From NCBI GenBank assembly GCA_922989275.2, contig OV277861.1:40984623-41048622 (forward strand): a DNA stretch of 64,000 nt, written 5' to 3'. This DNA is from Gari tellinella (taxonomy: Eukaryota > Mollusca > Bivalvia > Cardiida > Psammobiidae). Within the stretch, counting starts at the first letter, position 1. The number at the start of each line of letters is the position of its first letter. The notes below the pieces were generated by a model, which did not search any database, was not told the origin of the DNA, and saw only the letters and a program-made list of their open reading frames with translations. This document shows positions 24,801-63,837 of this stretch, one piece after another. The translations under genes were made by a program, and so were the position numbers.

Positions 24801-27800
24801 TGTGCAAGTATCAAAGCATTGCAGTATGGAGTGTTGATGCTATACGAAACAGTAAAATCTGATTAACCTCATTATGCAAAAACCAACAACTGAGCTTCAG
24901 ATGAGTGGAGTATTTCAAAGCTAAAATCTCTTTTTCTGCATTAAACTCTATGGTGTTACTACAGTCAGGACTCGATACAACGACATCGGTTACAACGGAA
25001 TATTCACTTAACGACACGAATTCCGTGGGAACAAACCTGCATAAAGCTTCATATATGAGATTCAATATAACGACAAACTCGTTATAATGACATATTTGTT
25101 GGGAACGAACTGTGTTGTTGTATCGAGTCCTGACTGTACTCATTAAAATCACGATTCTAATGAGTAGTAACACCATAAGATTATTTGGTGTTGACATAGT
25201 GAGAAAATGTTGATTTTGTTCAGTTTACTCCCTCTTATCTGGAGCTCTGCAACAAGCCAATGCTTCATGTATGATCACGATGATGTTAAGAATGATGGTG
25301 ATATGCAAAAATAATTTCCACCTTTAATAAAGGTTATTGTTTTCATTGGTCCTAGCTACATAAAGGGCCACTAAGTTACATACAGGGCCGTGGTTACAAA
25401 TAGGGATGTTTTTATTTACATTTAGGGCTACTCGTTTTTCAACATCATTTCAAAGTTTAGTTACATTATACTTACATATCCGGCCGTTTATTTAACATAT
25501 AGAGCCTAGTAACATACAGGGCTGCTATAGACATATCATATCTTACCTCTTTCTCAATTAAAAGGTTAAGGGCTTCCTTTGTATAGTTGGCGGTTTGAGT
25601 TTCAACAGGCAGGTCAATACTTTTTGTTGTCTTCTTTTTCTTCTTCTCTTCTTTTTTATCATCCTTCTTCTTATCCTCTTCCTATTAGAATATAATAGCA
25701 TCTGAATTATTTACAGTTCAAAAGTACAGGTAACCCTCGATAATTCCAGCCTGCTTAAGTCGAACATAATACAAAGCTAAAACATGGCTTATCCACATAT
25801 TTATCTATAATATGTTTCACTGAAAGCAAGCTCTATTTATAGAAATGAATAATACATTTGTACTAGTTAGTTTGACTCAAGGGATTTCGAGTTATCTAGG
25901 CACAACTGTACATCAACAAGTGAGCACCACGACAAGAAATACATTGCAAAACATTGTATTAGTGTTTTCTTCTGACCTGTCGGAGTTATTTTTAGATTGG
26001 AACATTCTAAAACTTTAAAAGGGATGAGTTTTCTCTACGTACGGATAATGATACGGATAGCTGTAATTTTTGTGCGCAATGTGCAGTAGAGGATACCTTA
26101 TTCTTTCCCATTTAAACGCAAACGCAATGCACTAAACTGTGGAAATTTACTTTAAGAAATTTTAATTATATTTTTAATCTGTGTAGCAAACATGTTGGAG
26201 CCTGATCAGACGCCGGGTAACCCGGTCTGATCTGGCTCCAACCTGTTTGCAAAGGAAATAATAGTTTTAGTATATAAATGCGTTTGTTGGGAAAGAATAA
26301 AATATCAGAAAAGTTAGTGCAAGGGTCTCGTGCTGCACGAGGATCATGTTATCTCAAGTTGGAAAGTGTACGACTATATAGATCCGATGTAACCCTGTTA
26401 TCTATTTACCATTATGAACTATTCTGTTCTAAAAATAACTCTGACAGGTCAGATAAATCGAACAATAGACGCATATTAAATGTCAGACCTGTTCAAGTTT
26501 AGGACATGTGGATACCAATTGCCTGTATCTAGATTTGAAGACAGGTGATTACTTAACGCAGGTTAAAAGTAAAGCAGAATGTGCCTGAAGGCATATTCTG
26601 CTTTACTTTAATTCTACTTAAGCTACCATCTGCTAGGATATAGGAAATATATCGGATAAAGTTAAAGCATGAGGAAGAGGTAAAGGGTGTGAAGAAACAT
26701 TTCAGTAAAGGAAATAGTTTCTTATAAATCTCTATAGAGATAATTTCAAATAAGTGTTGATCAGAGCCATGTCACCATCAGGGAAACCCAGAGCTGGTTT
26801 CTGTCAGGGGAGATAACAGGTCTAGGACAGAGTTATCATTCCTGACCAACCAGAGAAAACCTCCAGCAGTGGAGAGGAACAAAAACTAGTCCAAACACCC
26901 GAGCTGTGTGACCATGTTACTGCCCACTGACCTCTCAGAGAATGGATTGACCTTGTCATCATTTCAAACTACATGTAGTTCATTTCAAAGAATAATGTTA
27001 ATTTGTTCTATACAGAAGGTTACCTATACACAACAATTTTTGCAGAAGTTTTGAGTTTGGATTTAGATTATCTTTTCTATCTGCCAATAGTTTCTATTAT
27101 TTTATATTCTGCACTCTGGACGCTGGTTTCTTCATCTTTATAGGACACTGAAATTTTACAATGGCCATTATATTTTAAACCAAATCTTGAAATTTCTAAA
27201 AACTCTCCATTGATCCAATCACACTCCCTTGCTGTTCTTATTCTGCTATTAGTCTTAACACTATTCGTGTATCGAGGTGATTATGAGGAGGTACAGTTAA
27301 AAAGCTTTGAACTTTTTCAAGACCATGGACCTGTTCAAAATATACTCGTTACATTTGAGAACAGTGTAGACACAGATCAGAGGGCTCCTATAGGAGCCCT
27401 CTGATCTGGGTCTGCACTGTTTTCTAACTTAGTTCAATAATTATTAAACTACCCAGAATTCCAAGTAGACTGGTTCATGTTTTGGTAATTAAAATGATCC
27501 ACAAGGGAACATAATAACTCACAAGAGTTACTTAGTGTTGAAAGAGTTGATGCTTCAGTGAAGGAATTGGCCAATGATATAATTAGTTATAAAATAATTC
27601 CGTGAGCTTAGATCAGAGCCATGTCACCATCAGGGAAACCCAGAGCTGGTTTCTGTCAGGGGAGATAACAGGTCTAGGACAGAGTTATCATTCCTGACCA
27701 ACCAGAGAAAACCTCCAGCAGTGGAGAGGAACAAATACTAGTCCAAACACCCGAGCTGTGCGACCATGTTACTGCCCACTGACCTCTCAGAGAATGGATT

Positions 27801-30800
27801 GACTTTGTCATCATTTCATACAAGTTCAGTTTCAATGAGTAATGTTAATTTGTTCTGCAGATACAGTTGGTTACCTATACACGACAATTTTTGGCACAAG
27901 TTATGAGTTTGGATTTGGATTATCTTTTCTATGTGCAGATACAGTTTCCACTTTTATTTTATATTCTGCACTCCAGTATCTTCATGTTTATAAGACAGTC
28001 ACACTGAACTTTTACAATAGCCATTATTTTTAAAACCAAATCTTAACATTTCTGACAACATGCTCATTGATCCAACTGAATCACACTCCCTTGCTGTTTT
28101 ATTCTGCTATTTGTCTTAACACTATCAGAGAGTTTGCTTGTCTCGAGGTGGTTATGCGGAGGTACAGTTAAAAAGCTTCTTAACTCTTTCAACACCATGG
28201 ACCTGTTTAAAATATACTCATTACAATTGAGAACAGTGTAGACACAGATCAGAGGGCTCCTATAGGAACCCTCTGATCTGGAACTGCACTGTTTTCTAAC
28301 TTAGATCAGTAATTATTAAACTAACTAGAATTCCAAGTAGACTGGTTCATGTCTTGGTAATTAAAAAGGTCCATAACGGAACAAAATAACCCACACGAGT
28401 CACTAAGTGTTGAAAAAGTTGATGCTTCTTGGAAGGAATATGCCAATGATATAATTGGTTATAAAATAATTCCATGAGCTTAGATCAGAGCCATGTCACC
28501 ATCAGGGAAACCCAGAGCTGGTTTCTGCCAGGGGAGATAACAGGTCTAGGACAGAGTTATCATTCCTGACCAACCAGAGAAAACCTCCAGCAGTGGAGAG
28601 GAAAAAAAACTTGCCCAAACACCCGAGCTGTGTGACCATGTTACTGCCCACTGACCTCTCAGAGAATGGATTGACTTTGTCATCATTTCAAGTTTGAGTT
28701 ATAACTTATCACATACTACTTTTCAAAAACAATTTAACCCTAGATAAGTAAAACTTGCATCAGCAAAACTTGCTCATGTTTCTACAGAAGTATTTCAATA
28801 ACTTCATTAATTTGTTTAAGTCGAGCATGCACATACTTCAAAGCAGAAACATAGTTAAATTGTAGTTTAATTAGTTGGATTTTTATTGCATGACTAAAAG
28901 TAGTATCAAAAGCTACTAAAAGATCTATTAAGCAGTTATCTGTTTTGCAATGCTAAGTGATGACTGCCTTACCACAAGTACAATGGTTATTTGCAAACAG
29001 TTTGGTTCCAAATCAGATGTGGCCCAATACTGTGTTTAGTCAGGATCCAAAATGTTTGACACCTGTTATGAATTTTACCTAAAATTCTAACATAAACAAG
29101 TTAAACCTAACTTAATAATTTAAGTTGGAGTGTCAATGAATTTTCCTCTGGGGTTTCAATTCAATCAAATCAAATATTGATGGCTGTGCCCTCAGCTCTA
29201 ATGCAAACATTTTTGACTGATGACTATTTGTTGGTCATGTCTTACCTTATCGGTCTTCATTTCTTCTTCTTTAGGATCTGGGCCTTGTTCCTCGTTAGAC
29301 TGACTCTGATCTGCAGTGTCCATTGGAGCCTGTAATACATACATTAACAGATTATAATAGATATATGTACAATAACCCATTACCCGATAGTTTGTTTCTA
29401 GTTTTGAAGACAGGTGATCACTTAAAGCAGGTTGAAAGTAAAGCAGAATGCGCCTTAAGGCACATTCTGCTTTACTTTTAGCCTGCTTTAAGCTATTATC
29501 TGCTATAATATAGAAAATATTTCTTATGATTTTTATTTGTAACAGTACAAGTTGGAACTTTTTTCTTCAGTAGAGGAATTAATTAAAGGCATAAAAATGT
29601 GTATTTATGGGGTAATGGGTTAACAAATTCATCATACAGTCTACTGCTATTATAGCAATTCAAATGATTACATGTTCTAGTTTTTAACTCTTTAACCCAT
29701 ACCCTGTTTCTAGTTTTGAAGACATGTAACCACTTAAAGCAGATTGAAAGTAAAGCAGAATGAGCCTTAAGGCACATTCTGCTTACTTTTAGCTTGCTTT
29801 GAGCTACCACCTGCAAGGACATTAAAAATATTTATCAAAGCATATTCATTACAGTATAAATGGGAACACTTTTTTTGTGGAGAAATAAGTTAAAGGTGTA
29901 TTTATGGAGTCATGGGTTAGTTAAGCACAATATCTTACTGTTTTAATGGATACGAAAGTTTTTGCTACCAATCATTTCAACAATTACTGCGAGCATTCTA
30001 TAAACTTAGATCAGAGCCATGTCACCATCAGGGAAACCCAGAGCTGGTTTCTGTCAGGGGAGATAACAGGTCTAGGACAGAGTTATCATTCCTGACCAAC
30101 CAGAGAAAACCTCCAGCAGTGGAGAGGAACAAAAACTAGTCCAAACACCCGTGCTGTGTGACCATGTTACTGCCCACTGACCTCTCAAGAGAATGGATTG
30201 ACTTTGTCATCATTTCAAGTTTGATTCATCATGAAATGCCACTTTGCTCTATACTGTTCGTTCCCTATATGTTTTGCCATAGATTGGATCTTGGTTTTAG
30301 ACAACTTCTCAGTTTGCTCAATGGAGTATTGAATTATATTCTTTGTACTTTTCTGTCCTATGTTCTCAGAGATCCATGTTAATAACTATCCAACCCCATC
30401 CCACTACCACTGCAAGTATTTTAAGGCAGTTGGTTCCTTAAAGAAAGAGTAGATTTAGGGCGCTTTCTGTTTCTCCAGCAGTGTGTTCAGTTATGGGAAA
30501 TATGAGCTACTGTCAGCGAAGTTGAGCAAGTTGGCTACCTGGTCTAAAATACTCTGCACACTGTACAAACCACTAACACTAGCAGCAAAAATGTGCAACT
30601 GAATGCAACCCTGTTAAACATGTTTGTATTACACAACCTGAGGGTTCACTTGTTCATTCCAGAAAATTCAAATGGACAACTGTATTTACAAATAAAGTCT
30701 AGTCCATTTTGCACGATAGAGGGTTTATTTTTTACAATAAATTGCAAACAGTGCCCTCTGATCTGGTTCTACACCTTTTGTACAATACAAGTTGCAAACA

Positions 30801-63617: not shown

Positions 63618-63837
63618 AACAGCATCAGAACCATGTTACCATCAGGGAAACCCAGAGCTAGTTTCTGTCAGGGGAGATAACAGGTCTAGGACAGAGTTAT
63701 CATTCCTGACCAACCAGAGAAAACCTCCAGAAGTGGAGAGGAACAAAAACTAGTCCAAACACCCGAGCTGTGTGACCATGTTACTGCCCACTGACCTCTC
63801 AGAGAATGGATTGACTTTGTCATCATTTACTGCTGTT
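63618..63837 (-). ncRNA. 206-nt C/D-box RNA, copy 11, with 7-bp terminal stem
   Basis: The most distant copy, in a different intron. Conservation stops exactly at AAATGATGA on one side and CTGATG on the other. The flanks AACAGCA and TGCTGTT form a perfect 7-bp stem closing the C/D motif, unlike the stems of copies 4 or 8. One change falls in a hairpin loop (CTGC to CTTC), and others alter the C'-D part. Confidence 0.8.

Follow-up and report, generated by a model that had tools for sequence, protein, structure and literature searches.

Four inferred introns of an HSP110-class chaperone gene in the bivalve Gari tellinella hold 50 sense box C/D-type units which, judged from their sequence, are likely small nucleolar RNA (snoRNA) genes, whose products would be freed from the introns after splicing and direct the 2'-O-methylation of ribosomal RNA (rRNA). 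The window, that is, the whole 64,000-nt stretch analyzed here (assembly GCA_922989275.2, contig OV277861.1, positions 40,984,623 to 41,048,622), contains the 3' part of the gene on its minus strand. Profiles built from seed units and then run over the window returned four kinds of units: 18 U25-type, 20 of a kind denoted B, 11 SNORD17-like and one U25/U27 hybrid, together spanning 26757-63830. All 50 lie on the minus strand, sense to HSP110, with 0 on the plus strand, and 0 of 50 overlap any of the 15 mapped exons (the border of exon 12 was set at 25541 in this count vs 25547 at its GTAAGA donor). The profile search found no unit in the 18.7-kb downstream flank (1-18671), nor was any found in the next 29.9 kb upstream of the window. 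A preliminary description had placed the units in the introns of an HSP70-superfamily chaperone gene, on the host's strand and absent from the downstream flank, as is indeed the case; its "five kinds" and "over 50" copies come down to four kinds and 50 copies. The tally leaves out the hybrid's row in the U25 table (23.3 bits), and 18 U25 copies (16.0-22.3 bits) and one weak match at 56480-56570 (9.6 bits, E 0.097) were left out of the U27 table.

Arrangement of the units in the window and the genome

Intron 9 carries 22 units (10 U25-type, 11 kind-B and the hybrid), intron 5 carries 17 (8 U25-type and 9 kind-B), intron 11 carries 10 SNORD17-like units and intron 3 a single SNORD17-like unit, with none in the remaining mapped introns of the gene (Table 1). 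Introns are numbered by our exon labels; exon 7 is missing from the map and small exons may have escaped detection, so that the intron borders are inferred ones. Splice-like motifs occur inside the repeat units, and mini-exons may lie there. The kind-B copy at 53895-53979 is interrupted by 280 inserted bp (53977-54256), bordered by the 14-bp target duplication GAATGATGATTCTG, and its C-box remnant is left at 54257-54270, indicating that the remnant belongs to the copy at 53895 and is not a 51st unit. A retroposition origin, at first entertained for this isolated copy, was dropped in view of the insertion. The insertion itself looks like a short interspersed element; ARAGORN found no tRNA in it, and a tRNA-derived label, which would rest solely on box motifs, was not adopted.

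The boxes exceed chance expectation on one strand only. C boxes (RTGATGA) number 79 on the minus and 15 on the plus strand, vs 16.8 ± 4.0 (maximum 26) in 100 dinucleotide shuffles of the minus strand. A C box, a D box and a terminal stem of at least 5 bp within 100 nt occur 22 times on the minus strand and 0 times on the plus strand, with a shuffle mean of 0.33 (maximum 2), and a looser scan for C/D pairs, in which single C boxes are often counted more than once, gave 67 minus and 2 plus. Because the units are related to one another, independence cannot be assumed for these counts, and the kinds are fewer. A strict pattern for the boxes (terminal C box RTGATGA, terminal D box CTGA) and the guides is satisfied by 46 of the 50 units; the exceptions are the U25-type units at 51910 and 58927, the kind-B unit at 42765 and the SNORD17-like unit at 30007.

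Searching the 1.6 Gb assembly at the DNA level with one unit per kind returned 18 U25, 11 SNORD17-like, 20 kind-B and 1 hybrid match, all within HSP110; these counts are lower bounds, and diverged relatives are missed. Close copies are not scattered over the genome in both orientations outside genes, a distribution that the preliminary description had held to be incompatible with its proposal. In the genome, a C box combined with the U25 guide and its D' box occurs 16 times, each time in HSP110, and the reversed control pattern 0 times; the two U25-type copies outside the pattern (51910 and 58927) are those with changed guides. Guide-pattern searches covered the U25 and U27 guides, and the SNORD17-like and kind-B units were searched genome-wide by DNA match alone. 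An Rfam SNORD25 search of the whole genome gave 0 matches, and its controls likewise matched nowhere, so that this negative carries no information.

Guide types and predicted rRNA targets

The gathering scores of SNORD25, SNORD27 and SNORD17 were not reached, and the names used here therefore denote guide type only. The pairings described below were examined on rDNA other than the guides' own target, since the bivalve's own rRNA was not found in the assembly, from which the rDNA seems to have been left out. The U25-type guide CACAGACCTGTACTGA pairs over 11 bp with 18S ACA[G]GTCTGTG in 3 of 3 rDNA contigs holding the site (3 of 5 fetched), which makes 18S Gm1490 (human numbering) the predicted target. 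Against Rfam snR56, which we take to be the yeast counterpart of the U25 type, 17 of the 18 copies are listed, below the cut-off. In the alignment of the U25 terminal stem (15 of 18 copies, 14 of them distinct) 84 of 84 cells are paired, one position varying between G-C, C-G and U-G, and 6 of 500 shuffles reached its covariation score. The fetched contigs (L035-L039) are filed under bacterial genomes and hold the universal eukaryotic 18S 3' end, that is, contamination.

The single hybrid, at 38819, combines a U27-type guide, CAAGCATAT, with a 3' half, ATGGGGAATAATCTGA, common with the U25 type, and is likely the product of a domain exchange between two snoRNA kinds. Its best Rfam score is for SNORD121A (24.1 bits, gathering 44), followed by 19.0 bits for SNORD27 (gathering 52). 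The U27-type guide pairs over 9 bp at TCAT[A]TGCTTG in contig L037, and 18S Am27 (human numbering) is the predicted target. The 3' guide ATGGGGAATAAT, which precedes CUGA in both the hybrid and the U25 type, pairs weakly with a single site in the fetched contigs (9 bp including one GU, in L039).

A second battery emerged with the U27 guide. The pattern of C box and U27 guide has seven sites in the genome (control 0), namely the hybrid and six SNORD27-type copies on one strand of another chromosome, in introns of RPS7: five lie between the final two exons mapped, and the sixth in a preceding intron. Their guide, CAAGCATAT, agrees with the SNORD27 consensus, their terminal stems measure 4-12 bp, and the SNORD27 and SNORD121A models compete for them with scores of up to 43.3 (gathering 52) and 43.0 (gathering 44), respectively. 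The chaperone gene is thus no exception in this genome, which has multi-copy arrays in single inferred introns elsewhere as well. The preliminary description had both U25 and U27 multiplied in the chaperone gene, which applies to U25 with its 18 copies; U27 is represented there by one hybrid, the six better SNORD27-type copies being in RPS7. U25 and U27 are otherwise known from the non-coding host SNHG1/UHG, with the same D' guides, whereas here the U25 type sits in HSP110 and the SNORD27 type in RPS7, both in multiple copies.

The long, SNORD17-like units fit the Rfam SNORD17 consensus around AUCCAUUC-CUGA and score 21.1-27.1 bits in 11 of 11 copies (gathering 45). They resemble SNORD17 as long C/D RNAs with the D' guide AUCCAUUC before CUGA, and differ in their length of ~211 nt vs a 238-position model, in being present in eleven copies and in scores well short of 45 bits; their terminal stems comprise 4-7 bp. 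SNORD17 targets 28S U3797 and is hosted by SNX5 (PMC5025248), and from this and the Rfam likeness 28S Um3797 is the predicted target.

Kind-B units have terminal stems of only 4-5 bp. Upstream of the D box they carry CAGGGCAGAC, predicted to pair with GTC[U]GCCCT at what we take to be position 354 of human 18S. The predicted target, 18S Um354, is the weakest of the four assignments: the two fetched contigs holding the site read TTTCTGCCCTATCAAC, which leaves 8 bp by count, below the scan threshold. Um354 is the site assigned to SNORD90 (PMC9941101; PMC10894041), so that the D guide of kind B would set methylation on the same nucleotide, whereas the SNORD90 model did not come up when one kind-B unit was searched against Rfam with E values of up to 10. 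The preliminary description had overlooked both this fit and the SNORD17 likeness of the long kind.

Proposed release from introns and rival explanations

Conservation of the units supports their reading as snoRNA genes. Among U25 units whose spacers can be recognized as homologous despite their divergence (52 of 55 pairs drawn from 11 of the 18 copies), core divergence is 0.055 vs 0.215 in the 150-nt spacer. Similarity is greater in the core than in the flanks in 150/153 U25 pairs, 55/55 SNORD17-like pairs and 186/190 kind-B pairs, the pairs not being independent; the kind-B core mean of 0.924 is too low, as the aligner misplaced the 3' part in 2 of 20 copies. The SNORD17-like pairs follow this trend, with core and spacer diverging by 0.033 vs 0.199 in one instance, although many of the spacer alignments of this kind are gappy. 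In the U25 type (P 0.007) and the SNORD17-like kind (P 0.039) a unit's own terminal stem exceeds swapped stems in stability, and the hybrid folds better than its shuffles (z -3.3).

A number of results weigh against this reading. Rfam at gathering thresholds matches none of the 50 units, and a search with one kind-B unit brought up no Rfam relative above chance level. The stem-swap test is null for kind B (P 0.36), whose spacers are about as conserved as the core: over a 67-nt stretch made up mostly of spacer, 17 of 19 copies agree to 94-100% and the remaining two to 87% and 70%, which makes the spacer comparison uninformative on selection for this kind. Gene conversion limited to the core could also keep cores alike, and 116 of 500 shuffles match the count of U25-stem pairs changed on both sides. 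Folding is no better than in shuffles for U25 (z -0.7), the kind-B unit (z -0.7) and the SNORD17-like unit (z -1.3), and neither of two kind-B spacers folded shows a strong RNase III hairpin. With regard to targets, two 18S patterns had 0 matches in the 1.6 Gb assembly; at the scan threshold the kind-B and SNORD17-like guides did not match their proposed sites in the fetched rDNA contigs, which are not animal; and in L036 the U27-type guide pairs over 9 bp, including one GU, at a diverged site. Finally, the DNA search is insensitive, as the hybrid query missed the RPS7 copies that the U27-guide pattern caught.

The arrays probably grew by tandem duplication in place. If the units are snoRNA genes, the HSP110 pre-mRNA would be spliced, C/D core proteins would bind each unit on the nascent intron, and the units would then be freed. 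Splicing and exonuclease trimming by themselves can liberate no more than the outermost ends of an intron with many copies, so that the inner copies would require endonucleolytic cleavage within the spacers. The high copy number would raise the supply of guides from one RNA polymerase II gene. Animal introns mostly hold a single snoRNA each, and an intron with two can give rise to snoRNA-related long non-coding RNAs (sno-lncRNAs) (PMC11028025). This one-per-intron pattern goes with exonucleolytic release from the debranched intron, and what is new relative to it are the 10, 17 and 22 C/D-type units between neighbouring mapped exons. We also put forward, as a tentative proposal with slightly less than even odds, that snoRNAs may be produced polycistronically, as in plants, within a single animal intron: here a 50-copy intronic battery, being the sole U25-guide locus of the genome and also bearing guides for Am27, Um354 and Um3797, would tie rRNA methylation capacity to HSP110, with RPS7 as a second battery for SNORD27.

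Alternatively, a few of the copies may be working snoRNA genes, most being passengers of satellite-like tandem duplication that are never released as mature RNA. This explanation is somewhat doubtful. It accounts for the regular tandem repeats of 139 and 252 bp and for several recent copies that are near-identical, spacers included, and it agrees with the habit of animals to carry mostly one snoRNA per intron, two giving sno-lncRNAs instead (PMC11028025). Passengers would not be expected to retain intact boxes and guides in 46 of 50 copies, nor cores that are better kept than their flanks in the pair counts given above, the kind-B count with its aligner fault included.

Another outcome, which we consider unlikely, is that exonucleases halt at the outermost small nucleolar ribonucleoproteins and leave a sno-lncRNA of several kb with 10-22 C/D particles, acting as a sponge or nucleolar scaffold instead of supplying single guides. 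The 18S site of the U25 guide is widely methylated, but such a transcript would provide no free guide from the only locus found with a C box and U25 guide. Short kind-B spacers (~52 nt), two of which folded without a strong hairpin, would suit this outcome, and it is known for introns with two snoRNAs (PMC11028025). Mobile or satellite DNA bearing chance C/D-like motifs is largely refuted and most improbable, for although the structure is tandem and Rfam gives no gathering match, there is no close copy outside HSP110 in 1.6 Gb, one strand only is used, known guides stand in register with D' boxes, and stem changes preserve pairing.

As snoRNA genes, the units combine features of several known systems. 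Intronic C/D snoRNAs, chaperone hosts, duplication within a host gene (PMC2653536) and large arrays such as SNORD115/116 are already known. The SNORD115 and SNORD116 arrays of mammalian SNHG14 likewise have dozens of near-identical box C/D copies in the introns of one host. They occupy 29 and 48 tandem introns with one copy each, and their RNAs are without known targets (PMC11608373), whereas here the host is protein-coding, the guides resemble known rRNA guides, and 10-22 copies share an inferred intron, the layout of one copy per repeated exon-intron unit being absent as judged by the mapped exons. SNORD14 lies in HSPA8 introns, and the SNORD63 and SNORD14 hosts carry single or few copies. 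SNORD63 in HSPA9 (PMC5025248; PMC8629011) shares with HSP110 a chaperone gene as host; both SNORD63 and SNORD14 differ in their guides and in belonging to another member of the HSP70 superfamily. Plant snoRNA clusters also have many snoRNAs per precursor, but are usually intergenic with their own single promoter (PMC11028025), and the present arrays are intronic and animal. Among the literature matches listed there was no report of such arrays in a mollusc, nor of many copies per animal intron.

The 22 nearly all intact copies between two neighbouring exons offer a direct test case for cutting snoRNAs from a polycistronic animal intron. The same arrays allow a test of whether guide copy number sets the level of a given rRNA methylation, and the location of the only U25-guide locus found in a chaperone gene makes a link from protein-folding stress to rRNA modification testable.

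The host gene and other features

Exons were sought by tblastn with human HSPA4 as query and the window plus 29.9 kb upstream as target; exon 1 lies ~8.3 kb outside the window. Pfam HSP70 was listed for 6 of 10 open reading frames (ORFs) searched, 5 of them above the cut-off. Comparison of the joined exons 4-6 (159 residues) with the PDB gave HSP105 as the best solved structure, then yeast Sse1, then HSP70s, an order that indicates the HSP110 class. From its sequence the host is thus assigned to the HSP110 class of the HSP70 superfamily, with HSPA4, HSPA4L and HSPH1 not told apart; the preliminary description's HSPA4 is right as to class, HSPA4 itself being inseparable from HSPA4L/HSPH1. The partial exon-joined protein has its top named matches in Mactra, Mya, Dreissena and Mercenaria (66-67% identity), by which the animal would be placed among the bivalves, and six other matches score higher. 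A 215-bp unit is tandemly duplicated at 61508-61923 (1.9 copies, 98%) and takes in part of exon 4, producing a second partial exon 4 at 61665-61712.

Table 1. Positions of the host gene, its exons and the C/D units (window coordinates unless stated otherwise)
Feature	Position	Strand	Remark
HSP110 (HSPA4/HSPH-type) host gene, 3' part	18672..64000	minus	tblastn with human HSPA4
HSP110 C-terminal exon	18672-18887	minus	assigned by eye from ORF, not tblastn
Exon 12	25547..25681	minus	3' end placed at GTAAGA donor
Intron 11 cluster, 10 SNORD17-like units	26757..36937	minus	profile search
SNORD17-like, intron 11, first five	26757-26966, 27609-27818, 28481-28691, 30007-30218, 30952-31161	minus	
SNORD17-like, intron 11, last five	32933-33143, 33916-34125, 35001-35211, 35864-36073, 36729-36937	minus	
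Exon 11	37492..37703	minus	
Exon 10	38204..38337	minus	
U27/U25 hybrid C/D unit, intron 9	38819..38906	minus	11-bp terminal stem
Intron 9 array, 8 U25-type units	39897..41785	minus	period mostly 252 bp
U25-type in 252-bp array, first four	39897-39972, 40154-40229, 40406-40481, 40658-40733	minus	
U25-type in 252-bp array, last four	40910-40985, 41162-41237, 41413-41488, 41710-41785	minus	
Intron 9 array, 11 kind-B units	42207..43688	minus	139-bp period
U25-type unit, intron 9	43771..43846	minus	
Diverged U25-type unit, intron 9	44513..44585	minus	one terminal-stem pair flipped
Exon 9	46077..46183	minus	
Exon 8	47241..47392	minus	
Exon 6	49947..50191	minus	
Intron 5 array, 6 kind-B units	50422..51201	minus	139-bp period
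Intron 5 array, 3 U25-type units	51662..52237: 51662-51737, 51910-51985, 52162-52237	minus	C box and guide changed in 51910-51985
Intron 5, 3 kind-B units	53895..54546: 53895-53979, 54325-54411, 54465-54546	minus	
Intron 5 array, 4 U25-type units	58415..59251: 58415-58490, 58669-58744, 58927-59002, 59176-59251	minus	guide changed in 58927-59002
U25-type unit, intron 5	60189..60263	minus	
Exon 5	60632..60765	minus	
Exon 4	61879..61978	minus	AG/GT-bounded
Single SNORD17-like unit, intron 3	63622..63830	minus	7-bp terminal stem in C/D scan
Six SNORD27-type copies in RPS7 introns	C4:45013001-45043000 (L046-L048)	one strand	guide pattern
RPS7 copies, stretch L047	186-255, 3854-3920, 4566-4632, 5242-5308, 5714-5780, 7702-7768		positions in L047

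Two further repeat classes occur in the window. Dispersed inverted repeats of one family (D8, 21 copies), with the hairpin GCAGAATG...CATTCTGC, are likely small transposons and appear miRNA-like in Rfam below the cut-off; the miRNA families listed by Rfam at E up to 10 are short hairpins of dispersed inverted repeats and were taken as chance. Tandem arrays with 156-161-bp periods at 8916-9978 (outside the gene) and 32007-32823 are likely ordinary satellites.

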